A stretch of 33,707 bases of DNA, from positions 101,074 to 134,780 of the forward strand of contig PMES01000054.1 in assembly GCA_003154775.1 (NCBI GenBank). Reading direction: 5' to 3'. Origin of the DNA: Acidobacteriota bacterium. GTDB lineage: Bacteria > Acidobacteriota > Terriglobia > Acidiferrales > UBA7541. Below, in pieces: positions 15,930-31,853 of the stretch. The position numbers and the translations under genes were made by a program. Within the stretch, counting starts at the first letter, position 1. The number at the start of each line of letters is the position of its first letter. Under the pieces are notes generated by a model. The model searched no databases. It saw only the letters and a list, made by a program, of their open reading frames with translations, and was not told where the DNA came from.

Positions 15930-16859
15930 TTAGTTCCTTTCCTCGATGGGCACCAGGAAGCGGAGAGCGAGGCGTGCGGCAGATTCGGCAGGGGTGATGG
16001 CCATGGCGCCAAATTCCGCCTGAGGGGCAACGGCGTGGAGGCGTTCGTCCACCAACTGATCAAAGAAGAAGGAGCAGCCCACCATGCCGCCCGTCTTGGC
16101 CAGAAGGAATTTCTGATCCTTGAGATGCAGGCGCTCGATGAGGGCGGCGACAAGCGTGGCGAGGTCGTCGGCAGCCGCTTGGAGCAGGGCGTGCGCGGCG
16201 GAATCGCCTTGATCCGCAGCTCGCAGAATCACCGGGAAAATCTTGGGGAAGACTTCATCGGGGACGCCGTGGGCGAGGGATTGGACTTCGTGCCAGGAAG
16301 TGGCGTTGAGTTCCTGAAGAATCAGGCGGCCCATCGTGGTGTTGGCGCCAGTACGATCGAATTCGTGCAAAGCGGCAATGGCAGCGCGGCGGCCGACATC
16401 GAAAGCGCTGCCTTCGTCTCCGAGGAGCGGACCGTGGCCGCCAATGCGGGCGATCTGGCCCTGCGCATCGCGCCCAACCGCGGCGGAACCGGTGCCGGCA
16501 ATCAGGACAATCGCGGGACCTTCGCCGGTGGCTTCCAGAGTAAGCTCAAGATCGGTGCACACCACCACGGTTTTGCCGGGAAATTCTTCCTCGAGGAGGC
16601 GTTTCATTTTTCGTTCGGCATCCGGCTGGCCCGCGCCGGCAAGACCCGCGCAAAGAGCGATGACTTCCGCCGGCGGGATATTGGCGGACTGCAGGGCCCA
16701 GCGCGCGGCTTCACAAACGGCAGCCAGCGCGCCGCCAAATCCGACGCGCATCGGATTGGAGGGGCCGCTGCGGCTGCGCGCAAGGACGTGGCGCGATTCG
16801 TCCATGAGGACGCATTCCGTTTTCGTGCCGCCGCCATCGAACCCGAGAACATAGCGCAT
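15930..16859 (-). CDS. BadF-family amino-sugar kinase (GlcNAc/MurNAc kinase-like)
   Basis: The 309-residue protein from the ATG at 16859 shows the ASKHA-fold ATPase motifs: phosphate-1 GFDGGGTKTE (residues 5-14), a central LIAGTGSAAVG and GGHGPLLGDEGSAFDVGR, and a C-terminal KTGGMVGC. This BadF/BadG family includes human NAGK and bacterial MurK/GlcNAc kinases, which phosphorylate GlcNAc and MurNAc at O6. It is about the usual length (300-320). The neighbouring muropeptide genes (NamZ, NagZ-AmiE, MurQ) make GlcNAc and/or MurNAc the most likely substrate. The sequence alone cannot separate them. It is followed at 1 nt by the helical-repeat gene. Confidence 0.82.
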   Translation of the reverse strand: MRYVLGFDGGGTKTECVLMDESRHVLARSRSGPSNPMRVGFGGALAAVCEAARWALQSANIPPAEVIALCAGLAGAGQPDAERKMKRLLEEEFPGKTVVVCTDLELTLEATGEGPAIVLIAGTGSAAVGRDAQGQIARIGGHGPLLGDEGSAFDVGRRAAIAALHEFDRTGANTTMGRLILQELNATSWHEVQSLAHGVPDEVFPKIFPVILRAADQGDSAAHALLQAAADDLATLVAALIERLHLKDQKFLLAKTGGMVGCSFFFDQLVDERLHAVAPQAEFGAMAITPAESAARLALRFLVPIEERN

Positions 16860-17301
16860 AACCAAAGCATACGCGAGGCGGGGCCTATGTGCGCAAGGGC
16901 GAAAGGCGGGGTGCTGAAAGGGTTGCGGGTAAGGAGAGATTGGCCAGGATTCCTCACCGGGAGCGGGAAGAGAAAAACCGCAGGGCTCCCGCCAGAAAAC
17001 GGCGGGCACAGCGCTACAAACCCAAGAGAAAGGCACCCAGCCTGGTGGCGGCCTCCACATCTTCTTGGGAAAAACACGATTGTGGATCTGCTTAGGGCGT
17101 AAAAGCGGCGGCAAGCCGCCGCGCTCCAAGGGAAAATAGTGCGGACATGGGGCACAGCAGTGCTCGCCCCGACCGGGCGCCAACTGGCGAGCCAGAACCA
17201 GGCGGAAGATCGGATTAGCAGCGGAGTGTTGGCTTGACGGTGTTATGCGCAGCCACTATTCTCGACTCGCTCCACGGAACTTTCCGGTAATTCTGCGCGG
17301 C
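16860..17301. repeat. Intergenic region between kinase and symporter with repeats
   Basis: No gene is supported in this 442-bp divergent gap. It contains CGCCAGAAAACGGCGGGC (about 16991-17008) followed by a GCGCTACAAACCCAAGAG segment similar to 15035-15070. It also holds the hairpin repeat AAAAGCGGCGGCAAGCCGCC at 17101-17129 with TGCGGACATGGGGC after it. The symporter promoter lies at 17234-17262. The frames open across 16889-17183 on both strands are repeat-derived. Confidence 0.65.
17234..17262 (+). promoter_or_regulatory. Probable sigma-70-type promoter of the symporter gene
   Basis: TTGACG (17234-17239), a 17-nt spacer and TATTCT (17257-17262). The predicted start of transcription near 17269 rules out the ATG at 17245 as the translation start and supports 17302 or 17311. 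Confidence 0.6.
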
Positions 17302-18750
17302 ATGGTGCTTATGCACATTCATCCGCTGGATTTGGCGATTGTTGTTGCGTACTTGTTGGGAGTGACGGCGCTGGGATTGCATTTCCGGCGAGGGCAGCAG
17401 GACGCCCGCGACTATTTTCTGGGAGGACGCAGCGCGCCATGGTGGGCGCTGGCGTTTTCGATTGTCGCCACGGAAACTTCCACCCTCACGATCATCGGGA
17501 CACCGGCGATTGCGTATTCGGGGAACATGACATTTTTGCAGTTGGTGTTCGGGTACATCGTTGGGCGGATTCTGATCACTATCATTTTGTTGCCAGGATA
17601 TTTTCGCGGGGAGTATCTGACGGCCTATGCCGTGATCGAGAAGCGCTTCGGCAGCCGCATGCGCTCTGTTGCTGGGGTGACGTTTCTGGCCACACGGACA
17701 CTGGCGGAGGGCGTGCGCGTGTCCGCGATTGCGCTGGTGGTAAGCGTGGCGCTGGGTACATCGGAGCGGCTGGCGGTGTTCATCGTGATTGCGCTGACGG
17801 TGCTGTACACGTTTGAAGGCGGAATGAAGGCGGTGATCTGGACGGACGTGGCGCAGTTCCTGCTGTACCTGACGGGGAGTTTGCTCACACTGGGCTTGCT
17901 GCTGCATCGCATCCCCGGAGGATGGGCGGAAGTGAGTCAGGTGGCGGCGGTGAGCGGGAATAAGCTGCGTGTGCTGGATTTCTCGTGGAATTTGGCGACG
18001 AAGTATACGTTTTGGTCGGGAGTGATTGGGGGCGCGTTCCTGACCATGGCGAGCCACGGAACGGACCAGACGATCGTGCAGAGGTTGCTGGCAGCGCGAA
18101 ATCAGAAGGACAGCCGGCGCGCGTTGCTGGCGAGCGGCTTCATTGTGTTGTTTCAGTTCACGATTTTTCTGCTGATGGGCGTGGCGCTTTTTGTGTTTGC
18201 GCAGCACACGCCGCTGCTGGCCGCGGGAGAGCGGACGGACCGCATCCTGCCGTTGTTCCTGATTCGAGAGATGCCGACGGGTCTGGCGGGGCTGCTGCTG
18301 GCTTCGATTCTGGCGGTGGCGATGTCCAATGCGAGCGGGTCGTTGAATTCGCTGGCGGCTTCGAGCGTGATGGACCTGGCGGTGCTACGCGGGCACTCCA
18401 CGGATCCCGGCAATTTCCTGAAGCTTTCGCGGAGGATGACGCTGGTGTGGGGCGCGGTGTTGATCGTCCTTGGGCTGGTGAAATGGGGACCAGTGCTGGA
18501 GGCCGGGCTGACGGTCGCTTCCTTGCCGTTTGGAAGTTTGCTGGGGCTGTTTTTGCTGGGGACGTTTGATGCACGGGCAAATTCGAGAGGCTCGCTCGCA
18601 GGGATGTTTGCCGGACTGGCGACGGTGCTGCTTGTTTTTCGGTTCACGAAGATCGCGTTTACGTGGTACGTGCTGATTGGCGCGTGCGTGACGTTCGCCG
18701 TTGGGGCGGTGGTGAGCCGATTAATTGTGGAGCGCCGGGCGGCGGGGTGA
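17302..18750 (+). CDS. Sodium/solute symporter (SSS family)
   Basis: The 482-residue protein has about thirteen hydrophobic segments in SSS order: LDLAIVVAYLLGVTALGLHF (segment 1), DYFLGGRSAPWWALAFSIVATETSTLTIIG (the unwound helix and Na-site region), then ISALVVSVAL-like segments and SHGTDQTIVQRLLAARN (the conserved segment-8 signature). SSS carriers couple Na+ to uptake of sugars, amino acids or vitamins. Its place between an amino-sugar kinase and an amino-acid permease in a murein-salvage region suggests import of GlcNAc, MurNAc or a peptide-bearing sugar. The start is set at the ATG at 17302; the ATG at 17311 is possible and neither has a strong Shine-Dalgarno. Confidence 0.8.
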   Translation: MVLMHIHPLDLAIVVAYLLGVTALGLHFRRGQQDARDYFLGGRSAPWWALAFSIVATETSTLTIIGTPAIAYSGNMTFLQLVFGYIVGRILITIILLPGYFRGEYLTAYAVIEKRFGSRMRSVAGVTFLATRTLAEGVRVSAIALVVSVALGTSERLAVFIVIALTVLYTFEGGMKAVIWTDVAQFLLYLTGSLLTLGLLLHRIPGGWAEVSQVAAVSGNKLRVLDFSWNLATKYTFWSGVIGGAFLTMASHGTDQTIVQRLLAARNQKDSRRALLASGFIVLFQFTIFLLMGVALFVFAQHTPLLAAGERTDRILPLFLIREMPTGLAGLLLASILAVAMSNASGSLNSLAASSVMDLAVLRGHSTDPGNFLKLSRRMTLVWGAVLIVLGLVKWGPVLEAGLTVASLPFGSLLGLFLLGTFDARANSRGSLAGMFAGLATVLLVFRFTKIAFTWYVLIGACVTFAVGAVVSRLIVERRAAG

Positions 18751-18807
18751 CGAATTGCCAGCGAGAATTGGGCTAGACTCGGTGGCTGAGAATTTGCGCG
18801 GAGGAGT

Positions 18808-20214
18808 ATGAGCGAGAAACGCCTAGAGTTGGTGCGAGGACTTGGGCCGTGGGCCTCGGTGGCCATTGTGGTCGGTACGATGGTCGGAACGGGCATTTTC
18901 CTGAAGCCGGCGGAAATGGCGCGGGAAGGCCACTCGGTTTCGATTGTTTTTGCGGCGTGGATCGTTGGCGCAGTGCTTTCGATTTTTGGCGCACTGTCGT
19001 ATGCGGAGCTGGGCGCGGCGATTCCGGAGGCTGGCGGCGAGTACGCGTATTTGCGGCGCGGCTTCGGGCCGGTGTGGGGATATTTGTTCGGGTGGATGCA
19101 TTCGATTGTGGGGCGGCCGGCTTCGGCGGCGTCGATTGCCGCGGGGATGATGCGCTTCCTCGGCTTTTTTCTTCCGGCGGTGGCGGCGCCGATCTTCACC
19201 GTACACATTGCGCTTCCGGGGCTGACCGCGTGGATCAAGCCGTACGATTTTGCTTTTACGTGGGCGCAACCGCTGGCCGTGTTCTGGCTGGTGCTGATGA
19301 CCGGCGTGAATTATCTGGGCGTGCGGCTGGGCGGAGGCGTGCAGGTTTTCCTGACGGCGATCAAACTGGTGAGCATCGCGATTGTGATTGGCGTGGCGTT
19401 TGTTCTTCCGTCGGGCGGGGCGCATGCGGGGGACCCGGTGTGGCCGGCGGCGGTGAATGCGGGATTGTTCAGCGCGTTTCTGGCGGCGCTGGCGGCGGCG
19501 CTGTGGGCGTACGACGGGTGGGAAGATCTGAACCTGGTAGGATCGGAAGTGAAGGATCCGCAACGGAATTTTCCGCGGGCGCTAGTGGGCGGAGTGTCGT
19601 GCGTGGCGCTGGTGTATCTGCTGTTCAACGCGGCTTGCTTCAAGGTGCTGCCGTTTGCAAGCCTGGCGAATTCGTCGCACGTGGCATCGGACGTGGTGGC
19701 GCGAGTTGTGGGGCATGGCGCGGCCGCGTGGGTAACTTTGGCGATGTTGATTTCCGCGCTGGGGTCGATGAATTCCTCGATCCTGAGCGGCGCGCGCGTG
19801 CCCTACGCGATGGCGCGCGATGGAATTTTCTTCAAGATCGCCGATGGCATACATCCGAAACACCGCACGCCGGCGCGGGCGCTGATATTTCAGGGAGCGC
19901 TGGCCAGCGTGCTGGCGCTGAGCGGAACGTTTGAGGAGCTGACGAACCTGTTCATTTTTGCGGGCTGGATTTTTTACGGACTGGCGGTGGTGGCGCTGTT
20001 TCGATTGCGCCGGACGGAACCGGAAATGGAGCGGCCGTACCGCTGCTGGGGGTATCCGTGGATTCCCGGTGCTTTCGTTCTGGGCGCGCTGGCGCTCACA
20101 GTGAATCTTTGGCTGGATCGGCCGGGTCGCTCGACGATTGGATTGTTACTGATACTCGCGGGGCTGCCGTTTTACCGGTGGTGGACGAGGAGAGCCGCCG
20201 ACGCGCAAAGCTAG
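18808..20214 (+). CDS. APC-superfamily amino acid permease (LAT-like)
   Basis: The 468-residue protein has about twelve membrane segments. The APC signature VGTMVGTGIFLKP is near residues 22-34 (GxGIF, the substrate backbone-binding loop). SYAELGAAIPEAGGEYAYLRRGFG follows near 64-87, and ALWAYDGWEDLNLVGSEVKDPQRNFPRAL near 231-260. This resembles LAT-type exchangers and amino acid permeases in the inner membrane. A GGAGGAG Shine-Dalgarno lies 5 nt before the ATG, and the gene follows the symporter by 57 nt, so the two are probably co-transcribed. A role in taking up amino acids or peptides released from murein is possible but not shown. Confidence 0.83.
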   Translation: MSEKRLELVRGLGPWASVAIVVGTMVGTGIFLKPAEMAREGHSVSIVFAAWIVGAVLSIFGALSYAELGAAIPEAGGEYAYLRRGFGPVWGYLFGWMHSIVGRPASAASIAAGMMRFLGFFLPAVAAPIFTVHIALPGLTAWIKPYDFAFTWAQPLAVFWLVLMTGVNYLGVRLGGGVQVFLTAIKLVSIAIVIGVAFVLPSGGAHAGDPVWPAAVNAGLFSAFLAALAAALWAYDGWEDLNLVGSEVKDPQRNFPRALVGGVSCVALVYLLFNAACFKVLPFASLANSSHVASDVVARVVGHGAAAWVTLAMLISALGSMNSSILSGARVPYAMARDGIFFKIADGIHPKHRTPARALIFQGALASVLALSGTFEELTNLFIFAGWIFYGLAVVALFRLRRTEPEMERPYRCWGYPWIPGAFVLGALALTVNLWLDRPGRSTIGLLLILAGLPFYRWWTRRAADAQS

Positions 20215-20251
20215 TGTTGTGTCCCGAAAATACCGTGCAAAAGTGCAGAGT

Positions 20252-20347: not shown

Positions 20348-21013
20348 CTAGGAGTGCGCTTCACGCACCTTGCGCAGGCTCTGCAAGGCAACACCCAGGC
20401 ACAGGGCAAAACCGGGCAGAATTACCCAATTGACGATGGCAGCGGCGAGCGCAGTTGCCTTGATGGACAGGGAGACTTGCGGGTCGATCAGGAACGCCAA
20501 GGGAAAAAGCAGCAAGAAAAACACTCCAAGAGCCAGGGCGGGAAGGGAGGCCGCGAAATAAACGCGCCATCCTGTTGCTTGCGCCCGCCGGGAGAGATAT
20601 GCCCCGATAGCTCCGATCAAGGGCAGGCTCAACATCCACGGAAGATAAAGGACGATTCCACGCGGCTCACCGGGGTGAGAGATCATCACCCGCAAGCCGG
20701 CAAACTGCATCAGCGCCAAGAGAACATACGCAGAGAATAGAGTGACGAGCCCGGGAATCCAGATTTGCGAGACGCGGTTTTGCATGAAAGCCTCCAATTT
20801 TGCCGAGAGAATGTCGCGGCGAAGTTCCAACCAACTGGGGACCTGATCGCACGCGAGGCGAACGGCGTCCGATTCAGAAACGCCTTGCGCCCGCAGGGAG
20901 AGATAGGTGTCTTCGAGATGCGCGGCAAGCTCTTCCCTCACTTGCGCCGACTCCACCTCCGGAAGAGACAAGCGGCCGAGGCGGCCGTTCACATACGCGA
21001 GCCAATCAGGCAT
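20348..21013 (-). CDS. HAAS-type membrane protein paired with a PadR regulator
   Basis: The 221-residue protein starts with an acidic N-terminal helical segment (MPDWLAYVNGRLGRLSLPEV, then REELAAHLEDTYLSLRAQGVSESDAVRLACDQ), characteristic of the HAAS/DUF1700 signalling domain (about 1-65). Four or so membrane segments follow (about 85-105, 118-140, 150-175, 185-210). The ATG at 21013 overlaps the PadR gene's 3' end by 8 nt. PadR-HAAS pairs are thought to act together, with the membrane partner controlling the repressor, but mechanism and signal are unknown. A role sensing envelope state or cell-wall fragments would fit the neighbours but is conjecture. Confidence 0.68.
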   Translation of the reverse strand: MPDWLAYVNGRLGRLSLPEVESAQVREELAAHLEDTYLSLRAQGVSESDAVRLACDQVPSWLELRRDILSAKLEAFMQNRVSQIWIPGLVTLFSAYVLLALMQFAGLRVMISHPGEPRGIVLYLPWMLSLPLIGAIGAYLSRRAQATGWRVYFAASLPALALGVFFLLLFPLAFLIDPQVSLSIKATALAAAIVNWVILPGFALCLGVALQSLRKVREAHS

Positions 21014-21338
21014 GGTTCACCCTGGCGACGCGGCGCATGGCGCGGAAGAGGTCAGACCACTCGGCGCGAAGGGGTGCGAGCATCTTCCGGCCACGCGGCA
21101 GCAATTTGTAGCAGCGGCGACGGCGGCCATTGTCGCCGGTTTCCCACTCGCCGCGCAGCCAGCCGCGATTTTCCATGCGATAGAGGAGCGGATAGAGCGC
21201 GGCGAGGGTGAAGCGGAGGGCGCCCCCGGAATCGTGTTCGATGCGGCGAGAGATTTCGTAGCCGTGGAGGGGTTGCTGCTCCAGGACGCTGAGGATGGCG
21301 AGTTCGGCGGTGCCGCGCTTCAGTTCGGTGCGAATCAT
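21006..21338 (-). CDS. PadR-family transcriptional regulator
   Basis: From the ATG at 21338 (AGGGGA Shine-Dalgarno 9 nt before it) the 110-residue protein has the PadR winged helix: LKRGTAELAILSVLEQQPLHGYEI (about 5-28), then RFTLAALYPLLYRMENRGWL and the basic RRRRCYKLLPRGRKML wing. PadR proteins are usually repressors that bind their own promoter. It lies between the HAAS-type gene and NamZ. The reading frame is open to 21389, but the upstream residues are shadow of the promoter region. Its promoter contains a perfect palindrome at 21354-21370, a likely self-operator. Targets are unknown. Confidence 0.84.
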   Translation of the reverse strand: MIRTELKRGTAELAILSVLEQQPLHGYEISRRIEHDSGGALRFTLAALYPLLYRMENRGWLRGEWETGDNGRRRRCYKLLPRGRKMLAPLRAEWSDLFRAMRRVARVNHA

Positions 21339-21353
21339 GGCGTGTCCCCTTAC

Positions 21354-21370
21354 ATATAAGAGTATTATAT
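21354..21370 (-). promoter_or_regulatory. Palindromic candidate PadR operator overlapping the -10 region
   Basis: ATATAA and TTATAT form a perfect 6-bp inverted repeat around GAGTA. It overlaps the minus-strand TAATAC -10 (21362-21367), with TTGACA at 21384-21389 (16-nt spacer). Binding here would block the PadR promoter. Confidence 0.5.
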
Positions 21371-21383
21371 ATAACAGCGCGAT

Positions 21384-21389
21384 TGTCAA
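21384..21389 (-). promoter_or_regulatory. -35 element TTGACA of the PadR-HAAS operon
   Basis: A perfect consensus TTGACA on the minus strand, 16 nt upstream of TAATAC, in the gap just after the NamZ stop. It directs transcription into the PadR gene. Confidence 0.5.
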
Positions 21390-21418: not shown

Positions 21419-22687
21419 TCAGGGATACAGGAAATACTTGCGGCGGACTTGATCAAAGGCCGCGAGTGCCTCGGCCCAGCCGCGGACGATTTGTTCCGGG
21501 GATACACCGGCTTGGAGATCACGCACGGCCTGCTCATTGCCGATGAGTTGCAGGATTTTGGAGGAATCGAACTGCTGCGGATATTTCTTCTGCAGGAGGG
21601 CGGCAATTTCCAGGCCCATGCGCATGGAGCGCACGGCCGCGCGATCCGTGACCTTGACGCCGACACCGCCGCAGCGCTGTCCGGCGTAGAGACCGCTGAC
21701 GGGAATGAAAGGCTGATTGGAAAAGCGCAGGCCGGGAAGATTTTTCGCATTCAATTCCGCGGCAACGTCGTCGCCATCGATCCAAGGCGCGCCAAGCTCC
21801 TCGAAAGGCGCTTCCGTGCCGCGGCCCACGGAAACGCCGGCGCTCTGGAGAATTTCCAGGCCGGGGTAGAGGATGGAACCTTTCAGCGTGCGGAGATTGG
21901 GCGAGGGAGGAATCCAGCGGCTGCCGGTGCTTTCAAAAAAATAGTTGCGGTGCCAGTTTTTCATCTTGATGACGCGGAGATCGGCATTGATGTGATTTTC
22001 GGAGTTGTAGAACTGCGCGAGTTCGCCGATGGTGAGCGCGTAACGCACGGGGATGGGAAAGTAGGCGACGAAACTGGTTTTGTCCGCATCGAGCATGGGC
22101 CCTTCGAGGATGTCGCCGCTCAGGGGATTGGGGCGATCGAGTACATAGAAGGCAATGCCGTGTTTCGCGGCTTCCTCCATGCAGTAGGCCATCGTGGTGG
22201 TGTAGGTATAGAAGCGAACGCCGGCGTCCTGCACGTCGAAAACGAGCGCATCAATATCTTTCAACATGTCGTCGGTGGGACGAAGTTGCTCGCCATAGAG
22301 GCTGTAGATGGGGAGCCCGGTCGAGGGATCTTTGGAGGAAGAGACCGTGTCAATGGCGTGGCCGGCGATGCCGTGCTCGGGGCTGAACAGCGCGACCAAC
22401 TGGATTCCGGGGGCCTTTGCGAGGACTTCCACGGTGGAGCGCCCCTGAAAATCCACGCCGGTGTGATTGGTGATCAGGCCGACGTGTTTGCCGCGTAGCG
22501 AGGCGAATTTCTCCGATTCGAGGACGTCGAGGCCCGTCTGAACCCGGCCAACGTGGCTCCGCTGGGGTTTCGCGTGCTTCTGCGCTGCGAAAGTGAAGTG
22601 CGCCAGGAAAACGGCGGCCAGAAGCGAAAAGGCAAACGCGCGGCGGAGTTGGCGGAGGGAGCAGTTCGGACGGCCGATGGGTTCCAT
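21419..22687 (-). CDS. namZ: Exported exo-beta-N-acetylmuramidase, NamZ family (DUF1343)
   Basis: The 422-residue protein has a signal peptide (RRAFAFSLLAAVFLAHFTFAA) and a full DUF1343 body. Motifs include GLITNHTGVD (70-79), ALFSPEHG (99-106), FDVQDAGVRFYTY (150-162), VLDRPNPLSG (182-191) and GRGTEAPFEELGAPWIDG near residue 290. The B. subtilis homologue NamZ (YbbC) releases MurNAc from the non-reducing end of peptidoglycan fragments, giving MurNAc to be taken up and salvaged. An exported enzyme here would do this in the periplasm. The gene is divergent from the NagZ-AmiE fusion with 111 bp between starts, an arrangement that favours co-regulation. The family call is strong; activity on this organism's wall is inferred. 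Confidence 0.87.
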   Translation of the reverse strand: MEPIGRPNCSLRQLRRAFAFSLLAAVFLAHFTFAAQKHAKPQRSHVGRVQTGLDVLESEKFASLRGKHVGLITNHTGVDFQGRSTVEVLAKAPGIQLVALFSPEHGIAGHAIDTVSSSKDPSTGLPIYSLYGEQLRPTDDMLKDIDALVFDVQDAGVRFYTYTTTMAYCMEEAAKHGIAFYVLDRPNPLSGDILEGPMLDADKTSFVAYFPIPVRYALTIGELAQFYNSENHINADLRVIKMKNWHRNYFFESTGSRWIPPSPNLRTLKGSILYPGLEILQSAGVSVGRGTEAPFEELGAPWIDGDDVAAELNAKNLPGLRFSNQPFIPVSGLYAGQRCGGVGVKVTDRAAVRSMRMGLEIAALLQKKYPQQFDSSKILQLIGNEQAVRDLQAGVSPEQIVRGWAEALAAFDQVRRKYFLYP

Positions 22688-22728: not shown

Positions 22729-22757
22729 TTGTGAGCATGGAGTGCGCGTGCTATATA
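22729..22757 (+). promoter_or_regulatory. Probable promoter of the NagZ-AmiE fusion gene
   Basis: TTGTGA (22729-22734), 17-nt spacer, TATATA (22752-22757) with an extended -10 TGC before it. Expected transcription start about 22764, giving a leader of about 35 nt to the ATG at 22799. Confidence 0.55.
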
Positions 22758-22798
22758 CAGTCGAGGCGGCGGGCAGGCGGCCGGGGGATCATCGGAAT

Positions 22799-25700
22799 AT
22801 GAACAGGCGTGCTGCCGGATTGTTGTTTCTGCCATTTTTGCTTCTATTTCTTATGACACTGAACGCTCGCAGCGACCTACGAATCGCAGAATCCGCGAAA
22901 GCCACGGCAAGTGAAAAGCGCGCCGCCCAGAGCGCCCTCGCGGGCAAATCCACGGCCGAACAGGAGAAATGGGCCGAAACAACGCTCCGGCAGATGAGCG
23001 TGGAGGAAAAGGTCGGGCAGGTCCTCTTCACGACATATCATGGCAGCTTCACGCCCACGGATTCCGAAGCGTACGCGCAGATGATGCACGACGTGAACGA
23101 GTTGCACGTCGGCGGATTCATCAACATCACGCACGGATCGCCGCTGGGCATCGTGAAGAGCCAGGCGTATCCGACAGCCGTGCTAACGAACCAACTGCAA
23201 TCCAAATCGAAGCTCCCGTTGCTGATTGGCGCGGATTTCGAGCGCGGCACGGCAATGCGGTTGGATGAAGGGACATCGTTCCCGACGGCGATGGCGCTGG
23301 CGGCCGCCGGAAATCCCAGGGATGCGTACACCATGGGGAAAACCACGGCGCTGGAGGCGCGGGCCGTGGGCATCCAGTGGATCTACGCGCCGGACGCGGA
23401 TGTAAACAATAACCCGGGGAATCCCATCATCAATACGCGGTCGTTTGGCGAAAACCCCGCGCGGGTATCGGAATTTGTAAGCGAATTCATTCGCGGGGTG
23501 CAGGAGAACGGCGGGCTGGCCACAGCGAAGCACTTCCCCGGGCATGGCGACACGGCGGCGGATTCGCACATTGATTTGCCGGTGATCAAGGCGGACCGGG
23601 AGCGCCTGGAGCATCTGGAACTTGTGCCGTTTCGCGCGGCGATTGCGGCGAGCGTGGGAAGCGTCATGACCGGACACCTCTCGGTGCCGGCGCTGGAACC
23701 CGATGCGAATACGCCGGCGACGCTTTCTGCGCGCATTCTTACGGATGTCCTGCGCAAGGAATTGGGATTTGAAGGGCTGGTGGTGACGGACGCCATGGAT
23801 ATGGGCGGGATCACGGTTCGTTTTGCGCCGGGAGATGCGGCGGTGCGCGCGTTCCTGGCGGGCGCGGACGCGTTGCTGATGCCGCCGGTGCCGGATGCGG
23901 CGTACGATGCGCTGCTGGCCGCGGCGCAGTCCGGGCAAATCACCGAGGAACGGCTGGACGCTTCGGTGCGGCGCATTCTTCTGGCCAAGGCGAGGCTGGG
24001 GTTGAACAGCAACCGGCTGGTGGATTTGGATGCGCTGAATGCGAAGTTCGGCAGCGCCGCGTATCAAGCGGAGGCGCAGGAAATTTCGGACCGGGGAATC
24101 ACGTTGCTGCGGGATACGCCGCACCGGTTGCCGCTGAACGGGACGAAGCCGCTACGAGGGTTGCTGGTTTCGCTTTATGCGGACCCGGAGCCTTATCCGG
24201 GGGAAGACCTGGAGCGGGAGCTGCGCTTGCGGTTCGATTCGCTGATTGCACTGCGCGCGGACACGAAATTTGTGAAGGCGGACACGCTGAAATTGCCTTC
24301 ACCGGATCAGTATGACGTGGCCATACTGGCGCTGTTTGTGCGGGTGAGCGATCGCAAGGGCAATGTGGACGTGCCGGCAGACCAGTTGCCGGTGATCGAG
24401 CAAATCCTGAAGGCGGGCAAGCCGGTGATCATGGTGGGTCTGGGCAGTCCGTACCTGATTGAAAAATTCCCGCAAGCAGAGACTTGGCTTTCCGCGTTTG
24501 GCATCAGCGACGTGGCGCAAATTTCGATTGCGCGCGCGATCTTTGGGCAAATTCCCGTGCAAGGACACTTGCCGGTGACGATTCCCGGCGTGGAGCTGAA
24601 GGCGGGCTTCGGGATCGAAGTTGCGGCGGATCCGATGAAGCTGCAGGCGATGGACGTGCGCGGAGAGGCGCAACTGCGGCCGGCGTTTGAGGTGGTGGAA
24701 AAGGCCATCGCGGACAAAGCGTTCCCCGGAGCGACGCTGGCGGTGGGGTATCGCGGAAAGGTGTCGCTGCACGCCTTTGGAAAGTTGAGCTACGACGCGG
24801 ACTCGCCGGCCACGAAGATTGACACGATGTATGACATCGCCTCGCTGACAAAGGTAGTGGCGACGACCACGCTTGTCGAGATGTTGGTGGAGGGCGACTT
24901 CCCTTCCCCGCTGGATCTCGACGCTCCCATCGAGCGGTATCTGCCGGAATGGATCGACGGACCGCAGGTCAAGGGTCCCCACAAAATCGTGGTGCGGGAT
25001 TTGCGCGAACTCGCCAATTGGCCGGGCGAGCGGCAAATCGCGTGGCGGCACAAAGTGACGGTGCGGCATCTGATGACGCACACTTCGGGGCTGCCCCCGT
25101 TCAAGGAGTATTGGCGCACGTCGCAGGGCAAAGCCGACACGCTGCGCATGATTTTCGCGGAGCCGCTGGAGTACGAACCCGGAACGAAGGTGGAGTATTC
25201 GGACCTGGGCATCATCCTGATGACGGAGATCATCCAGCGGCTGACGGGAAAACCGCTCGACGAACTGGCGCGCTCGTTGATTTTCGGCCCGTTGGGAATG
25301 AAAAACACGATGTACCTCCCGCCGAAGAATTTGTGGCCGGAGATTGCGCCGACGGAGGTGGACAATGAGTTGCGCCACCGCTTGGTGCAGGGCGAAGTCC
25401 ACGACGAAAATGCTTACGTGATTGGGGGAGTTTCGGGGCACGCCGGGGTGTTCAGCACCGCGCCGGATTTGGCGGCATTTTGCCAGATGCTGCTGAATGG
25501 TGGGGTTTACGGGCACAAGCGGCTGCTGAAACGCGCGACGATCGCGGAATTCACGGTGCCGCAGGCGCTGGCGAAGAATATGCGCACGCTGGGCTGGGTG
25601 GTGCCGACCGAAGGCGGCTCCAGCGGGCATTATTTTTCGGCGCACAGTTACGGGCATACGGGATTTACGGGTACGACGATCTGGATCGATCCGGACCGGC

Positions 25701-25837
25701 AATTGTTTGTGGTGCTGCTGACGAACCGCGTCCATCCCACGCGCGAGAATCACAAGATTGCCGAGGTGCGGCCGGCGGTGCACGATGCGGTGATGAAGGC
25801 GTTGGGGTTTGCGGGCGAGAGCGCGCCGGTTAGGTGA
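22799..25837 (+). CDS. Exported NagZ-AmiE fusion: GH3 beta-N-acetylglucosaminidase plus serine beta-lactamase-like amidase
   Basis: From the ATG at 22799 the 1012-residue protein has a signal peptide (LLFLPFLLLFLMTLNARS). A GH3 domain (about 55-405) carries the NagZ motif KHFPGHGDTAADSH (244-257, catalytic Asp-His dyad D255/H257) and the nucleophile in VVTDAMDM (likely D331). A GH3 C-terminal part spans about 430-600. A serine beta-lactamase/AmiE-like domain (about 640-1010) has SLTK (S682-K685), YSD (800-802) and HTG (953-955), the three active-site motifs. In B. subtilis NagZ and AmiE are separate neighbours; here they are one polypeptide. The product would strip GlcNAc and then the peptide from muropeptides outside the cytoplasm. 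It is divergent from namZ. Confidence 0.88.
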   Translation: MNRRAAGLLFLPFLLLFLMTLNARSDLRIAESAKATASEKRAAQSALAGKSTAEQEKWAETTLRQMSVEEKVGQVLFTTYHGSFTPTDSEAYAQMMHDVNELHVGGFINITHGSPLGIVKSQAYPTAVLTNQLQSKSKLPLLIGADFERGTAMRLDEGTSFPTAMALAAAGNPRDAYTMGKTTALEARAVGIQWIYAPDADVNNNPGNPIINTRSFGENPARVSEFVSEFIRGVQENGGLATAKHFPGHGDTAADSHIDLPVIKADRERLEHLELVPFRAAIAASVGSVMTGHLSVPALEPDANTPATLSARILTDVLRKELGFEGLVVTDAMDMGGITVRFAPGDAAVRAFLAGADALLMPPVPDAAYDALLAAAQSGQITEERLDASVRRILLAKARLGLNSNRLVDLDALNAKFGSAAYQAEAQEISDRGITLLRDTPHRLPLNGTKPLRGLLVSLYADPEPYPGEDLERELRLRFDSLIALRADTKFVKADTLKLPSPDQYDVAILALFVRVSDRKGNVDVPADQLPVIEQILKAGKPVIMVGLGSPYLIEKFPQAETWLSAFGISDVAQISIARAIFGQIPVQGHLPVTIPGVELKAGFGIEVAADPMKLQAMDVRGEAQLRPAFEVVEKAIADKAFPGATLAVGYRGKVSLHAFGKLSYDADSPATKIDTMYDIASLTKVVATTTLVEMLVEGDFPSPLDLDAPIERYLPEWIDGPQVKGPHKIVVRDLRELANWPGERQIAWRHKVTVRHLMTHTSGLPPFKEYWRTSQGKADTLRMIFAEPLEYEPGTKVEYSDLGIILMTEIIQRLTGKPLDELARSLIFGPLGMKNTMYLPPKNLWPEIAPTEVDNELRHRLVQGEVHDENAYVIGGVSGHAGVFSTAPDLAAFCQMLLNGGVYGHKRLLKRATIAEFTVPQALAKNMRTLGWVVPTEGGSSGHYFSAHSYGHTGFTGTTIWIDPDRQLFVVLLTNRVHPTRENHKIAEVRPAVHDAVMKALGFAGESAPVR

Positions 25838-26081: not shown

Positions 26082-26600
26082 GTGTGCGCAATCAAGCGGT
26101 CGGTTGTTTCTTGCCTTGTGCTGCTTATCAGTGCCCTCTCTGCTTCCCCGCAGCAGGGCGGCACACCCGCGAAGGAAGATAATCTCTATTCAGTAGCGTT
26201 GTTCACCAGCATATCTGAAATGGACAAATCTTGGGGCCACATCGATGACAGTGATGGCGGCAGTAGAATACATACGGACTACCACCGCATGCTGGTACAA
26301 AAGGACAATGAGATCACAGATGGCTTACCGTCACAACTGGGAGATTATCGGGTCGAATACCTGGATTACCGGGAGCAGATTGATAGATACAAGAAACTGC
26401 GGAAGGAATTTTCAATTCTCAAAATTGGTTCTATGCAGAGCGACGGGGCACGACTGAGAATCGTGATTTCTGTCTACTACCTCAGCTACAAAAAGCATAA
26501 ATTGCTTCTTGGACTTTCGGATTGGAGCGAAGTCGAATTCCGCTATGATTGCGAGAAGCAGAAGTACATCGTTTCTAGTGTGAAGCTCGGTGGCATTTGA
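26082..26600 (+). CDS. Hypothetical exported protein, lower GC
   Basis: The GTG start at 26082 has an AAGGAG Shine-Dalgarno about 8 nt before it. The 172-residue protein has a signal peptide (SVVSCLVLLISALSASPQ) and a mature part rich in charged and aromatic residues. The middle (YRVEYLDYREQIDRYKKLRK, about residues 88-107) is helical and could be coiled. I recognise no domain. Its base composition is visibly more A/T-rich than the flanking genes and it sits alone between the NagZ-AmiE and MurU-like genes, so it may be a recent arrival. A periplasmic location is likely. Nothing ties it to murein turnover apart from position. Confidence 0.65.
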   Translation: MCAIKRSVVSCLVLLISALSASPQQGGTPAKEDNLYSVALFTSISEMDKSWGHIDDSDGGSRIHTDYHRMLVQKDNEITDGLPSQLGDYRVEYLDYREQIDRYKKLRKEFSILKIGSMQSDGARLRIVISVYYLSYKKHKLLLGLSDWSEVEFRYDCEKQKYIVSSVKLGGI

Positions 26601-26754: not shown

Positions 26755-27663
26755 TTACTTCAGATCACGGCTGGCTTGGGCGAGGTCGTCTGGCTTGCCT
26801 AGATCGCGCCAATAGGCATCGTCCGCTGGGAAGGCGAGGATTTTCTCTCCGTGGGCGGACAAATGGAGATAGGTATCGATGATGGAGAAGACGCCTTGTT
26901 CCTCCATCAGGCGGAGGAGACGCGGGGAGATGACGTGGATTCCGGAGAAAGCGAGAGCTTGCGGCGGCTGTGAGCGCACTGGCTGTGATTCGCAAAAAGC
27001 AGATTCCTCGCTTCGCTCGGAATGACAATGCTCACTCGTTTCGGCAGGCGGTAAAGCCGCGCCCTCCCCTTCCACGCGGATCGGCATGGCACCTTCGGCT
27101 GAGATCGAGACGGGTTTCGGCGTGCCCTCCCGAAGAGCATTCGTGGGATTGCTGCGGTCCAATTCAGGCTCTTGGTCAGGGGCGACTCGGCGGCCGCACA
27201 GGCGGAGGTCGGCGTCAAACAGCAACTGCCGGGAACTCTTGCGGTGCTGGACTGCCAGTGTGGCTAACGCCTGTTTTTTGATATGGAATTCGAGCATGCG
27301 GCGGAGATCGATGGTGCTGATCACGTCTACGTTGTGCAGAATGAAGGGCTCATCGGAATGCGCGGAATCCTGGAGGAAAAACCAGGAGGCCTTTTTCAGG
27401 CCGCCGCCGGTATCGAGCAATTGCTCTTCGCGGGAGATTTCGATGTGCAGGCCGAAATTGTCGCGGGCCTTGAGGTAATCGAGAATCATCTCCGGGAAGT
27501 GGTGCACGTTGATGATAACGTCGCGAACGCCGAAGGAACTCAGGCGGGAAAGAGTGATTTCGAGGAGGGTGCGGCCGGCGACTTCCACGAGGGCCTTGGG
27601 GCGAGTGTCGGTGAGCGGGCGGAGGCGCGTGCCGAGCCCCGCCGCCAGGATCATCGCTCTCAT
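26755..27663 (-). CDS. Sugar-phosphate nucleotidyltransferase, MurU-like
   Basis: The 302-residue protein has the nucleotidyltransferase signature MRAMILAAGLGTRLRPLT (1-18) and RPKALVEVAG (21-30), a DTGGGLKKA loop (84-92) and the metal-binding NVDV (111-114). The C-terminal DAYWRDLGKPDDL is typical. This subfamily includes MurU, which makes UDP-MurNAc from MurNAc-1-P and UTP, and mannose-1-P guanylyltransferases. Lying downstream of an AmgK-like kinase on the same strand, MurU activity is favoured. Residues about 170-235 form an insertion not expected in the family, including HCHSERSEES (212-221), the translation of a dispersed repeat (26999-27028 in plus coordinates). The frame is kept across it. 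Activity after the insertion is not certain. Confidence 0.8.
   Translation of the reverse strand: MRAMILAAGLGTRLRPLTDTRPKALVEVAGRTLLEITLSRLSSFGVRDVIINVHHFPEMILDYLKARDNFGLHIEISREEQLLDTGGGLKKASWFFLQDSAHSDEPFILHNVDVISTIDLRRMLEFHIKKQALATLAVQHRKSSRQLLFDADLRLCGRRVAPDQEPELDRSNPTNALREGTPKPVSISAEGAMPIRVEGEGAALPPAETSEHCHSERSEESAFCESQPVRSQPPQALAFSGIHVISPRLLRLMEEQGVFSIIDTYLHLSAHGEKILAFPADDAYWRDLGKPDDLAQASRDLK
26999..27028. repeat. Dispersed CCTCGCTTCGCTCGGAATGA repeat inside a gene
   Basis: The second copy of the element seen at 57-86. Read on the minus strand it gives a HSERSEES-type peptide, a known product of intergenic repeats running into coding sequence. It lies inside the MurU-like gene without breaking the frame. 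Confidence 0.7.
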
Positions 27664-27745: not shown

Positions 27746-27765
27746 GTCGGACCTGAAGGTCCGAC
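27746..27765. repeat. CTGAAGG-loop hairpin in the AmgK-RapZ/MurU gap
   Basis: GTCGGACC / GGTCCGAC around TGAA: an 8-bp perfect stem. It is of the same kind as 7668-7683 and 15068-15083. It lies in the 138-bp gap between the two minus-strand genes, where it could attenuate or stabilise the transcript. Confidence 0.55.
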
Positions 27766-27801
27766 CCCCAATTGCCAAGCAGATTCATCATCGCCGGGCT
27801 T

Positions 27802-29229
27802 TCATTTGCCCATCTTTTCCAGTTCGATGTGGCGGACAACGACTTCGAGGCCGTTTCGGATGCGTAGGCGCTTGGCCAACTGTTCCGCTAGAAAGACCGA
27901 ACGATGCTGGCCGCCCGTGCATCCGAAGGAAACCATCAGATTCTTGAAGCCGCGCTGCTGATAGTTGCTCACGCTCGCATCGACCAGCGATAGCACTCCC
28001 GCAAGGAACTGGTGCACGCTTTCTTGCTGGTTGAGGTATTCGATCACCGGCGCATCTTTGCCGGTGAGAGTTTTGAAGCGCTCCTCGCGGCCGGGATTCG
28101 GCAGGCTGCGGCCATCAAACACAAAGCCCCCGCCATTTCCTGTTTCATCCTGCGGTAAACCGCGATGAAAGGAAAAGCTGAAGATGCGGACAACAAGATT
28201 TTGCGCTTCGGAGGCCAGGCCGAGAAGCTTCTCAGAGGCTAGCATGCCTTGAAACGCTTCCATGAGCGTGGGCAACTCGATGGGCAGTTTTGTGTTGTGC
28301 AGGAGCCAGCGCAGGTTTTTCAGGGCGTAGGGGACGCTCTGGAGGAAATGTGTTTTGCGCTCGTAAAAGCCGCGAAAACCATAAGCGCCCAGTGCCTGCA
28401 GGAGACGGACGTACACGTAAGCATAGTAAAAGTGAAGGAACGCATCGCGATCCAGATCGAGAAACTCGCTTAGCCGGTCGAGATAAGCATCCAGGAGATC
28501 CTGGCGGAGTTCCGGCGGCAGATCTGCTTTGGCATCGAACAACAGAGAAGCGATGTCATATTGCAGGGCGCCTTTGCGGCCGCCCTGATAATCGACGAAG
28601 AATGGCTGGCCATCGCGCAACATCACGTTGCGAGACTGAAAATCGCGGTAGAGAAAATAATCGCGGGGCGCGCTCAAGAGGAAATCGGCAAGGCGGCTGA
28701 AATCGTTCTCCAGGCCTTGTTCATTGAAGGGAATAGCGGCGAGGCGGAGAAAATAGTATTTGAAGTAGTTCAAGTCCCAGGCGATGGATTGGCGATCGAA
28801 GCTGGCGCAAGGATAGCTGGCGGAATAGTTCAAATCGCGGCCGGCTTCGACCTGGAAACGCGGCAGGACGGCGACGACTTTGCGGTATACCTCAACGACC
28901 GGCGCGGTGATGTTCGCGCCATCGCGATTTTTTGAGAGAAACTCGAAAAGCGTGGTGTCGCCCAGGTCCTCCTCGAGATACGCGCCGCGGTCCAGATCTT
29001 CGGCATAAATCTCCGGCACAGGCAGGCCATGTTTGCGGAAGTGCCGGGAGAATTCGAGGAAGGCGACGTTTTCCTCGCGAACGCCGTAGAGAATCCCGAT
29101 GGCGCTGACCCTTTCATTGGCAAGACGGATGATCTTGCGCCCGGAGCCGCCGAGGTCCCCCTGAATCGGCTGTATGCGCGCGGGGGGTGCATGAAAATGC
29201 TGCTCAAAAAGTTTCTTGAGAATGTCCAT
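27802..29229 (-). CDS. AmgK-like sugar kinase fused to RapZ C-terminal (GlcN6P-sensing) domain
   Basis: From the ATG at 29229 the protein has 475 residues; a TTG at 29235 is an alternative start. The N-terminal part (about 1-335) is an aminoglycoside-phosphotransferase fold: GDLGGSGRKIIRL (24-36), YLEEDLGDTTLFEFL, the catalytic loop YRDFQSRNVML (D196, N201) and metal Asp213 in VDYQGG. AmgK phosphorylates the anomeric hydroxyl of MurNAc and GlcNAc. The usual HxD is YRD here. The C-terminal part (about 346-475) matches the RapZ C-terminal domain: FHRGLP, FVFDGRSLPNPG and GCTGGQHRSVFLAEQLAKR (436-454). In E. coli this domain binds GlcN6P and controls GlmS. The N-terminal P-loop domain of RapZ is absent. 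A sensor domain on a salvage kinase would let amino-sugar level tune the enzyme; this is inference. Confidence 0.85.
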   Translation of the reverse strand: MDILKKLFEQHFHAPPARIQPIQGDLGGSGRKIIRLANERVSAIGILYGVREENVAFLEFSRHFRKHGLPVPEIYAEDLDRGAYLEEDLGDTTLFEFLSKNRDGANITAPVVEVYRKVVAVLPRFQVEAGRDLNYSASYPCASFDRQSIAWDLNYFKYYFLRLAAIPFNEQGLENDFSRLADFLLSAPRDYFLYRDFQSRNVMLRDGQPFFVDYQGGRKGALQYDIASLLFDAKADLPPELRQDLLDAYLDRLSEFLDLDRDAFLHFYYAYVYVRLLQALGAYGFRGFYERKTHFLQSVPYALKNLRWLLHNTKLPIELPTLMEAFQGMLASEKLLGLASEAQNLVVRIFSFSFHRGLPQDETGNGGGFVFDGRSLPNPGREERFKTLTGKDAPVIEYLNQQESVHQFLAGVLSLVDASVSNYQQRGFKNLMVSFGCTGGQHRSVFLAEQLAKRLRIRNGLEVVVRHIELEKMGK

Positions 29230-29392
29230 AGACAAGAGTTCCGGTAAATCGGTTTTGCGAGCCGGCCAGGTGCGTGCTTTTCCATCATAGATGATTCCGG
29301 GGATGCCGATAGGAAGGAACGCGGGAAGATGTCGTGGACGTTAATTCGGGGCAGTTTCCTAAGAGCTTTCTGAAAAGTACTGGAAAACCTTT

Positions 29393-29460
29393 CTTCAGGG
29401 GCTAAAGCCCATTGCATTTAGGGGCATTACGCCGGGGCTGAAGCCCCGGCCTCCTAAAGA
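29393..29460. repeat. About 68-bp dispersed repeat, copy 2
   Basis: CTTCAGGGGCTAAAGCCC ... TTACGCCGGGGCTGAAG, CCCCGGC, CTCCTAA. Outer ends match 20252-20320 closely while the middle differs (CATTGCATTTAGGGGC against CAATTCGCTCCACGGGC). Confidence 0.75.
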
Positions 29461-29624
29461 AACCACAAGCTATGCCCTCCGTTACGCTCAGGGTAAAAAG
29501 CCATGCCTTCCCGAGAAACTATCTGTGAGATAGCTTCTGAGGAGAGTCCCGCGAGCGTATTGACGGTCCTGCCGCTTACGCTGTTTTGTTCCAGCACAGA
29601 TCAGACGAGCGCTCCAAGCACAGC

Positions 29625-29630
29625 TATAAT
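29625..29630 (+). promoter_or_regulatory. Consensus -10 TATAAT placed for a leaderless murQ transcript
   Basis: A perfect TATAAT ends 6 nt before the A of the ATG at 29637, the usual distance to a transcription start. No clear -35 is present and the only purine run (AGGA) touches the ATG. This suggests transcription starts at or next to the start codon. Confidence 0.45.
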
Positions 29631-29636
29631 TTAGGA

Positions 29637-30554
29637 ATGCCCATCCCAGGCAATAAGCGCAGGCTGACGGAACACCGGCAGACAGAACAAAGGAATTCAG
29701 ACTCCAGGAATCTCGACCGCATGACGGCGATGCAGATTGTGCGGCTGATGAACCGCGAGGACCGCATAGTGGCGGCGGCGGTAGCGCGGGAGTTGCCCGC
29801 GATTGCGCGGGCTGTAGAGGCGATCGTACAAAGGATTGAAAACGGTGGCAGGTTGATTTATGTGGGAGCGGGATCGAGCGGGCGGATCGCAATGCTGGAT
29901 GCTTCGGAGTGCCCACCAACGTTTGGAACGCCGCTGGAATTGGTGCAGGCGCTGATTGCCGGGGGAAAGAAAGCGATGACGCAGGCCGTGGAAGGCGCGG
30001 AAGACCGCCGGGGCGACGCGGTGCGCGATTTGAAAAAGATTCGGCTGACCGGTACAGACGCGGTTGTAGGGATTGCGGCAAGTGGAACAACACCCTACGT
30101 CCTAGGGGCGCTGGCCTTCGCAAAGAAGCGCAAGGTGCTGACGATTGCGATCACGTCGAACCGGAGATCGCCCCTGGCGCGCGCGGCAAGAATTGCCATC
30201 GCGCCGGAGGTGGGCCCGGAAGTGATTGCGGGCTCGACGAGACTGAAGGCGGGGACAGCGCAGAAACTGGTCCTGAACATGCTCTCAACCGCAACGATGG
30301 TGCGCCTGGGCCATCTGTATGACAACCTGATGATTGATGTTGCGCGGACAAATGAGAAGCTTCGGGACCGGGAGAAGCGGATCCTGATGGAAGCGAGCGG
30401 GAGGGATGTGTCTGCTGTGGAACACGCTCTGCGTCAGAGTAAACACAACCTGCGCCTCGCATTGATCATGCTGAAGCGGAACATTTCGGCGGAACAGGCG
30501 AAGAAGCGCCTGGCGGCGGCCAGAGGCCATTTGCGCCGGGCATTGGGCGAATAA
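29637..30554 (+). CDS. murQ: N-acetylmuramic acid 6-phosphate etherase
   Basis: The 305-residue SIS-domain protein matches MurQ in length. The family N-terminus RRLTEHRQTEQRNSDSRNLD begins right after MPIPGNK, which fixes the start at 29637. The phosphosugar-binding loop VGAGSSGRIAMLDASECPPTFG holds E91, and GAEDRRGD holds E122. The 31-residue spacing equals that of the catalytic E. coli pair Glu83 and Glu114. The enzyme cleaves the lactyl ether of MurNAc-6P to GlcNAc-6P and D-lactate in the cytoplasm. A C-terminal helical part (ALRQSKHNLRLALIMLKRNI) completes the family. murA follows after 15 nt on the same strand. The kinase giving MurNAc-6P is probably the BadF-family gene at 15930-16859. 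Confidence 0.92.
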   Translation: MPIPGNKRRLTEHRQTEQRNSDSRNLDRMTAMQIVRLMNREDRIVAAAVARELPAIARAVEAIVQRIENGGRLIYVGAGSSGRIAMLDASECPPTFGTPLELVQALIAGGKKAMTQAVEGAEDRRGDAVRDLKKIRLTGTDAVVGIAASGTTPYVLGALAFAKKRKVLTIAITSNRRSPLARAARIAIAPEVGPEVIAGSTRLKAGTAQKLVLNMLSTATMVRLGHLYDNLMIDVARTNEKLRDREKRILMEASGRDVSAVEHALRQSKHNLRLALIMLKRNISAEQAKKRLAAARGHLRRALGE

Positions 30555-30569
30555 CAGGGAAAATGGGGC

Positions 30570-31853
30570 ATGGACAAATTTCAAATTCGCGGGGGTAAGC
30601 CGCTGCACGGGACGGTGACGATCAGCGGCGCGAAGAACTCCGCGCTGCCGGCGATGGCCGCGGCGCTGCTGACCTCGGAGCCGGTAACACTTCATAACAT
30701 TCCGATGGTGCGGGACATCATCACCATGGCCAGGCTGCTGGCGTTCATGTCCGCGAGGGTGACGACGGCGGACTTCCCCGCGGCGGACTACACCATCGAA
30801 GCGACAACACTGCATGGTGCGGTGGCGCCGTACGAACTAGTCAAGACGATGCGGGCGTCCATCCTAACGTTGGGGCCGGCGGTGGCGCGTGCCGGGATTG
30901 CGCACGTTTCGTTACCGGGAGGCTGCTCGATCGGGGCACGGCCTGTGGATCTGCATGTGGCCGCGCTGGCGAAGATGGGTGCGGAGATCAGCACGGACCA
31001 CGGGTATATCCGCGCAAAGGCGCCAGGGAATGGCCGGTTGAAGGGCGCGCACATCGTCTTTGAAAAAATTACGGTGACGGGAACGGAAAATTTGCTGATG
31101 GCGGCGACGCTGGCGGAGGGCGAAACGATACTGGAGAATTGCGCGCGCGAGCCGGAGGTGACAGACCTGATCCACCTCCTTCGAAAAATGGGAGCAGACA
31201 TTCGCGGCGACGATTCTTCGACGCTGCGCATCCGCGGCGTGGAAAAGCTGCACGGCGCAAACCATTCGGTGATTCCGGACCGCATCGAGGCGGGCACTTT
31301 TCTAGTGGCCGGCGCCATTACCGGCGGCGATCTGACAATCACGAACTGCGCGCCGGCGCACTTGGGCGCGGTGATTGCCAAGCTGGAAAAGGCAGGCGTG
31401 CCCATTGAAACGCCGAATGCGACAACACTGCGGGTGCGGGGCGCGAAGACGCTGGCCGCGGCGGACGTGACCACGGAAGAGTATCCGGGCTTTGCCACCG
31501 ACATGCAGGCGCAATACATGGCGCTGGCTACGCAGGCGGAAGGCACTTCGGTGATCACGGAAACAATTTTCGAGAATCGCTTTTTGCATGCGAGCGAGAT
31601 GATGCGCATGGGCGCGAATATTTCGATTGACGGGCGTCGCGCGGTGGTGCGCGGACCGGCCAAGCTGACGGGGACGACGGTGCAGGCGTCCGACCTGAGG
31701 GCGAGCGCGGGATTGGTGCTGGCAGGATTGGTGGCGTCAGGTGAGACGATGATTGACCGCGTGTATCACATTGACCGCGGGTACGAGCGGATTGTGGAGA
31801 AATTGCAGGGTGTGGGAGCGGATATTAAGCGGTTGCATGTGTCTGGGTCGTGA
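30570..31853 (+). CDS. murA: UDP-N-acetylglucosamine 1-carboxyvinyltransferase
   Basis: The 427-residue protein covers the full EPSP-synthase-like fold. It shows GGKPLHGTVTISGAKNSALP (8-27) with the catalytic Lys/Asn, and LPGGCSIGARPVDLHV with Cys119, the residue alkylated by fosfomycin (Cys115 in E. coli). Later blocks are RIEAGTFLVAGAITGG, EEYPGFATDMQAQ and RASAGLVLAGLVASG. MurA makes the first committed precursor of murein from UDP-GlcNAc and PEP. The retained Cys predicts fosfomycin sensitivity at the enzyme level. It sits 15 nt after murQ and ends shortly before a strong hairpin at 31878-31912. Confidence 0.95.
   Translation: MDKFQIRGGKPLHGTVTISGAKNSALPAMAAALLTSEPVTLHNIPMVRDIITMARLLAFMSARVTTADFPAADYTIEATTLHGAVAPYELVKTMRASILTLGPAVARAGIAHVSLPGGCSIGARPVDLHVAALAKMGAEISTDHGYIRAKAPGNGRLKGAHIVFEKITVTGTENLLMAATLAEGETILENCAREPEVTDLIHLLRKMGADIRGDDSSTLRIRGVEKLHGANHSVIPDRIEAGTFLVAGAITGGDLTITNCAPAHLGAVIAKLEKAGVPIETPNATTLRVRGAKTLAAADVTTEEYPGFATDMQAQYMALATQAEGTSVITETIFENRFLHASEMMRMGANISIDGRRAVVRGPAKLTGTTVQASDLRASAGLVLAGLVASGETMIDRVYHIDRGYERIVEKLQGVGADIKRLHVSGS

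Follow-up and report, generated by a model that had tools for sequence, protein, structure and literature searches.

The window analysed here is a 33,707-nucleotide stretch of an Acidobacteriota bacterium genome (GTDB lineage Bacteria; Acidobacteriota; Terriglobia; Acidiferrales; UBA7541; GenBank assembly GCA_003154775.1, contig PMES01000054.1, positions 101,074 to 134,780 of the forward strand). Its positions 15930-31853 are a peptidoglycan-salvage locus in which a putative N-acetylmuramic acid (MurNAc) kinase is fused to a RapZ C-terminal domain. Every gene that a sequence-only reading had named in this interval is there, at the correct coordinates, and scans of the window proteins with Pfam and NCBIfam bear out its view that the salvage locus is real: MurQ, the MurNAc-6-phosphate etherase (29586-30554, + strand), and MurA (30570-31853, +) both exceed curated cut-offs (TIGR00274, 374.5 bits against 302; TIGR01072, 560.7 bits against 392.7). 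The kinase fusion (27802-29229, -) matches the APH family (PF01636, 49.1 bits) and RapZ_C (PF22740, spelled 'PapZ_C' in Pfam, 118.5 bits against a cut-off of 27), and is accompanied by a MurU-like nucleotidyltransferase (26755-27663, -; NTP_transferase, 99.2 bits). The predicted hydrolases are NamZ, an exo-beta-N-acetylmuramidase (21419-22687, -; PF07075, NamZ_N, 275.6 bits; PF20732, NamZ_C, 144.5 bits), and a NagZ (GH3) fused to an AmiE-like serine amidase (22742-25837, +; PF00933, Glyco_hydro_3, 293.4 bits; PF00144, Beta-lactamase, 220.1 bits). An SSS-family sodium:solute symporter (17245-18750, +; PF00474, SSF, 145.6 bits) is a candidate MurNAc importer and an APC-family permease (18808-20214, +; PF13520, AA_permease_2, 196.2 bits) a candidate importer of amino acids or peptide fragments. 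A BadF-type N-acetyl amino-sugar kinase resembling MurK and NagK (15930-16859, -; PF01869, BcrAD_BadFG, 115 bits) lies at the other end; its bounds, about 15930-16859, were read from the sequence, as the 417-aa frame begins too early, and its profile scan was taken over 15930-16850. Enzyme activities given here are those predicted from family membership.

The kinase-RapZ_C fusion is the least expected and most unusual part of the locus. Its gene starts with an ATG at 29229 and encodes an APH-fold kinase at approximately residues 1-315 and RapZ_C at approximately residues 344-472. In an AlphaFold model (predicted local distance difference test score, pLDDT, 91.1; predicted template modelling score, pTM, 0.70), the kinase part superimposes, among the structures listed, on 3csv, a phosphotransferase (Z 29.2, 2.7 A, 308 residues); for the C-terminal part the match is the RapZ C-terminal domain (CTD) 5o5s (Z 20.1, 1.6 A, 123 residues), with RapZ CTD entries overall at Z about 20 and 1.4-2.3 A. 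The N-terminal domain is thus of the APH type and not the P-loop domain of RapZ. Conservation was read from an alignment of 41 fusions picked for diversity (39 of 80 loci from named genomes, the window protein and L005), in which kinase residues R195, D196, N201 and D213 are kept in 41/41. The joining of a salvage kinase to a sensor-type domain suggests a built-in switch.

The best solved match of the MurU-like protein is 4y7t, a nucleotidyl transferase that we take to be MurU of P. putida, and the 8hhd group, named MurU, matches too. Its MurU profile match is split because of a loop expansion, which on sequence comparison is lineage-specific: similar inserts occupy the same loop in L088, L076, L099 and L102 and in none of nine aligned sequences from other genera or phyla. 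The expansion contains the peptide HCHSERSEESAF (match at 27002-27024, - strand). An interspersed repeat encodes this peptide and occurs at 15 places in the genome, against 0 for the reversed control.

RapZ of E. coli is an RNA adapter and glucosamine-6-phosphate (GlcN6P) sensor whose CTD binds GlcN6P (PMC7073468), in a protein whose pocket comprises H190, T248, G249, H252 and R253 and holds malonate or sulfate in crystals (PMC5737377). Four of these five positions are almost invariant among the 41 fusions (T248 41/41, G249 40/41, H252 41/41, R253 41/41). On a looser letter check of 116 fusions, 115 have TGG and HRS, and 115 have both GGG and NPG; the exceptions are L183 and L140. Mean pairwise identity is 0.552 for RapZ_C and 0.559 for the kinase, and 0.335 for the linker, so that the domain, but not the linker, is about as conserved as the enzyme to which it is attached. 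A canonical RapZ in which NPH, and thus H190, is kept is encoded in the same genome (G000:C33:13276-13659; L002), showing that both RapZ_C types coexist in one genome. The residue pattern suggests that the fused RapZ_C is a working ligand site, perhaps with a changed specificity.

Upstream steps of the predicted pathway would be carried out by exported hydrolases. Both domains of NagZ-AmiE lie in one 1031-aa frame, in which the GH3 domain has KHFPGHG, DSH and VTDAM and the amidase domain has SLTK and YSD; NamZ has PEHG at residue 103. We presume all six to be catalytic motifs of these hydrolases. The best solved matches of NagZ-AmiE include lipoprotein YbbD/NagZ structures, and NamZ is the sole NamZ_N match in the genome. 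Both N-termini contain a hydrophobic, export-signal-like stretch when read by eye. In this genome no AmpG exceeds the cut-off (best score 19.7 against 350; the genome is listed as 98.21% complete, and a divergent AmpG could be missed), so the natural interpretation is that muropeptides are digested outside the cytoplasm and the sugars then imported.

For the MurNAc-6-phosphate branch, the closest solved relative of the BadF protein is a MurNAc/GlcNAc kinase (8zo3, E 5e-29; GlcNAc, N-acetylglucosamine). NagA is encoded elsewhere in the same genome (333 bits), completing a path from this branch to GlcN6P. In Tannerella forsythia, the importer MurT is a member of the sodium symporter superfamily and shares an operon with murK and murQ (PMC5790795); by analogy, the BadF-SSS-MurQ set of the window resembles that operon.

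Conservation of the joined locus is confined to one genus. In the window's genus, 32 of 36 genomes contain the fusion or a fragment, as do 11 of 53 genomes from other genera of the family; neighbourhood counts omit G160 (a fragment) and G205 and G227 (split over contigs). Across 30 genus loci, and counting only those with enough flank, MurU was present in 30/30, NagZ-AmiE in 18/19, NamZ in 17/18, MurQ in 22/23, MurA in 20/21, APC in 14/18 and SSS in 13/18, with the MurU and kinase fusion module sitting between NagZ-AmiE and MurQ. Among nine fusion loci of the family's other genera, MurU adjoined the fusion in 5/5, MurQ and MurA were found in 0/8, and NagZ-AmiE, NamZ, APC, SSS and BadF in 0/3 with enough flank. 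Between the divergent amgK and murQ genes, where a shared operator was looked for, the 12 of 23 intergenic regions that were aligned (>150 bases; gene starts approximate) share short conserved patches only.

The remainder of the locus forms a core that is found family-wide. A search of the family showed MurQ and NamZ close together in genomes without the fusion, and 20 loci were then read in detail. These were hand-picked for MurQ and NamZ on one contig or for an unlinked fusion, not drawn at random; 18 belong to nine other genera and two (G175, G176) to that of the window. NagZ-AmiE is beside MurQ in 20/20 (three NagZ-AmiE cut by a contig end), NamZ is present in 16, SSS in 14, BadF in 12 and APC in 11, counts affected by several loci that end early. 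The AmgK/MurU module was found in 0/20 at the threshold used. MurA directly follows MurQ in the window, and no other MurA of the genome exceeds the cut-off; the MurQ-MurA adjacency is kept in 20/20 chosen loci. The BadF-SSS-APC block is inverted in L224. In 8/20 loci (L219, L222, L224, L225, L233, L234, L235, L236), the NamZ frame measures 820-908 aa and includes an extra AmiE-like domain, 36-41% identical to that of the window, indicating that amidase domains have been joined to different partners in one locus.

This distribution, a core without the module across the family and a module joined to it only in the genus, indicates that the locus was assembled from two separable modules. The spacing of MurQ and NamZ, read by hand in the 51 of 89 family genomes with both matches on one contig, is 5.7-14.0 kb in 21 genomes with a linked fusion, 3.3-5.2 kb in 26 genomes without a fusion and 3.3-4.5 kb in four genomes with the fusion on another contig. 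On a tree of 116 fusion proteins, the label 'linked' requires 2 changes against a shuffled mean of 26.8, with 0/500 shuffles as low, although near kin cluster anyway. The tree was built by a quick method, with 35 of 111 inner branches weakly supported, rows aligned over <430 residues skipped and L081, L085, L086, L087, L137, L139 and L147 dropped by name. A single joining event in the genus fits, with G175 and G176 having either lost the module or never gained it.

Beyond the family, the fusion query matched 142 of 149 phylum genomes, and among the matches listed only four, the window's included, were full length at >=75% identity; the others are partial and correspond to separate kinases or canonical RapZ. 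In the stretches read around the three further full-length cases, MurU is the sole window gene beside the fusion, apart from a distant APC relative (30% identity) in one. A conserved 16-kb block across the whole phylum is thereby rejected. The gene-order comparison across Acidobacteriota that the sequence-only reading had proposed upheld co-occurrence of the core in the family and not of the whole block in the phylum. A scan of named genomes gave at least 588 pattern matches and at least 548 relatives, of which the best 80 were used, a sample that carries no prevalence outside Acidobacteriota. Record titles among these 80 are from Acidobacteriota, Calditrichota, KSB1, Elusimicrobiota, Neomarinimicrobiota, Ignavibacteria, Bacteroidota, Opitutae (Verrucomicrobiota) and one Deferribacteres, and L108 and L117 duplicate L100 and L101 of the genus set. 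Within the same 80, MurU adjoins the fusion in 64 of 73 loci with >=0.9 kb of flank. Where AmgK-like kinases of the phylum are unfused, 20/26 loci likewise have a MurU gene no more than about 1.5 kb away.

Other features of the window include a PadR-family regulator (21006-21389, -; PF03551, 73 bits), which scores 99.9 bits against TIGR03433 (padR_acidobact; cut-off 101.8), and a gene (20348-21013, -) that was initially labelled HAAS; no Pfam match was found for its product, leaving that label weaker than claimed. PadR and HAAS-like genes each occur in 9/18 genus loci with enough flank. A small frame with a signal-like start lies between NagZ-AmiE and MurU (26082-26600), and a haem-oxygenase-like/TENA-type protein (32842-33504; PF14518, PF03070) is close to MurA in many genus loci. 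No tRNA or Rfam matches were found in the window.

We consider it fairly probable that extracytoplasmic muropeptide digestion feeds two MurNAc routes in this organism, with the direct route gated via RapZ_C. NamZ and NagZ-AmiE would act outside the cytoplasm, trimming muropeptides to GlcNAc, MurNAc and peptide; the SSS symporter would import MurNAc, and the APC permease probably amino acids or peptides. Cytoplasmic MurNAc would then reach a branch point. One branch would begin with the formation of MurNAc-6-phosphate by the BadF kinase, followed by conversion to GlcNAc-6-phosphate by MurQ and to GlcN6P by NagA. In the other, the AmgK-like kinase would form MurNAc-1-phosphate and MurU would convert it to UDP-MurNAc (UDP, uridine diphosphate), bypassing MurA. 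The ligand of the fused RapZ_C would be an amino-sugar phosphate, with GlcN6P or a close relative the likeliest, and its binding would adjust the kinase, making flux through the direct branch follow the precursor pool; inhibition of the kinase at high GlcN6P is the favoured sign. More tentatively, the fusion may represent a widespread class of metabolite-gated anomeric MurNAc/GlcNAc kinases whose built-in RapZ-type sensor chooses between reuse as UDP-MurNAc and breakdown via MurQ.

Several observations weigh against this interpretation or its generality. The two toolkits stand side by side in one genus only, so that the combined salvage locus first proposed holds as a joint locus, with its order largely kept in the genus and its core family-wide, and not beyond the genus as a pairing of toolkits. 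Even there, BadF is present in only 8/18 loci with enough flank (some stretches end near BadF), L089 has no MurQ within 4.5 kb and L092 has neither NagZ-AmiE nor NamZ within 13.5 kb. Nine of the 73 named loci with sufficient flank, all Bacteroidota and one of them Saprospiraceae, have no MurU beside the fusion. Three predicted enzymes score well below curated cut-offs: BadF against the NagK equivalog model (124.9 bits against 370), the MurU-like protein against NF045761 (124.3 against 250) and the fusion kinase against the AmgK model (55.1 against 500). The name AmgK consequently rests on homology and on the MurU neighbour. The occurrence of both MurNAc routes in one organism is also not new, having been described in T. 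forsythia (PMC7670621, PMC5790795).

Within the pocket itself, the H190 position is glycine in 41/41 fusions (H in 15, Y in 4 and F in 2 of 21 canonical RapZ of the phylum), and glycines 364, 366, 367 and 368 (window numbering) of an inserted loop are present in 41/41; this G.GGG pattern occurs in 0/21 canonical RapZ of the phylum. With H190 changed and the loop inserted, the ligand of the fusion may not be GlcN6P. The domain might instead sense MurNAc-6-phosphate, GlcNAc-6-phosphate or a UDP-sugar, providing cross-talk between branches or end-product control. Both invariant changes could reflect a changed sugar specificity, but T248, H252 and R253 are kept throughout, as in GlcN6P-binding RapZ, and we regard this alternative as somewhat unlikely. 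It is less likely again that the locus performs ordinary salvage by AmgK/MurU and MurK/MurQ in the manner of T. forsythia, with RapZ_C as a passive, dimerising structural appendage. The co-occurrence of both routes is already published (PMC7670621) and the RapZ CTD dimerises (PMC7073468), but invariance of the pocket across phyla would be needless in such an appendage. Still more doubtful is activation of another sugar by the kinase-nucleotidyltransferase pair, with its position beside murQ a coincidence. The missed AmgK and MurU cut-offs and the 0/8 linkage to murQ in same-family loci outside the genus would allow it; however, the best solved relatives include entries named MurU and the 3csv phosphotransferase, MurU accompanies both the unfused kinases (20/26) and the genus fusions (30/30), RapZ_C ties the fusion to amino sugars and the linked fusions cluster on the tree (2 changes against 26.8), with the reservation that near kin do so anyway. 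Finally, although sequence and fold clearly mark the domain as a RapZ CTD, a role in binding RNA as in E. coli RapZ, making the kinase an RNA adapter for amino-sugar genes, is highly improbable, as neither the fusions (K270 0/41, K281 7/41, R282 2/41 and gapped in 6; K283 lies outside the aligned stretch) nor canonical RapZ of the phylum (K270 1/21, K281 6/21) keep the basic residues that bind RNA in E. coli, and the RNA-binding part is restricted to Enterobacteriaceae, with the putative sugar-phosphate site kept in diverse bacteria (PMC7073468).

Gating of the direct route by RapZ_C remains our preferred reading. Its attachment to a salvage kinase, seen in several phyla, gives RapZ_C a concrete output that can be assayed, and the fusion is a possible control point for splitting recovered MurNAc between reuse and breakdown. 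If the proposal is true, RapZ_C acts as an allosteric module in its own right, with no RNA involved, and the window's genus has moved this switch into the salvage locus under its control.

Compared with known systems, the fusion shares with E. coli RapZ the CTD fold (Z about 20) and four of five pocket residues (PMC5737377, PMC7073468), and differs in its APH-type N-terminal domain, the glycine at H190, the glycine loop and the lack of the basic RNA-binding residues. The openly licensed literature yielded no paper pairing RapZ with AmgK and no title or abstract start describing such a fusion, which is not proof of absence. The ybb cluster of Bacillus subtilis encodes NamZ, NagZ, AmiE and MurQ and relies on import by a phosphotransferase system (PTS). 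The window shares this muropeptide hydrolase set and MurQ, but its NagZ and AmiE form a single protein, and the importer is probably the SSS symporter rather than a PTS. In Pseudomonas, the AmgK kinase is a single-domain protein, whereas the window kinase is fused to RapZ_C and its gene adjoins murQ. The AmgK/MurU pair of Pseudomonas recycling provides a direct route from MurNAc to UDP-MurNAc (PMC5371407), and the window locus has the corresponding AmgK-like and MurU-like gene pair. A further parallel is T. forsythia, which likewise has a MurNAc importer of the sodium symporter superfamily, a MurNAc 6-kinase, MurQ and a second, AmgK/MurU route (PMC7670621, PMC5790795, PMC10465942). Its cluster includes an AmpG homologue and the organism lacks MurA/MurB (PMC7670621), whereas the window genome has no AmpG over the cut-off and carries MurA in the locus. 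The window further differs from T. forsythia in holding both routes in one locus, and its kinase carries RapZ_C.

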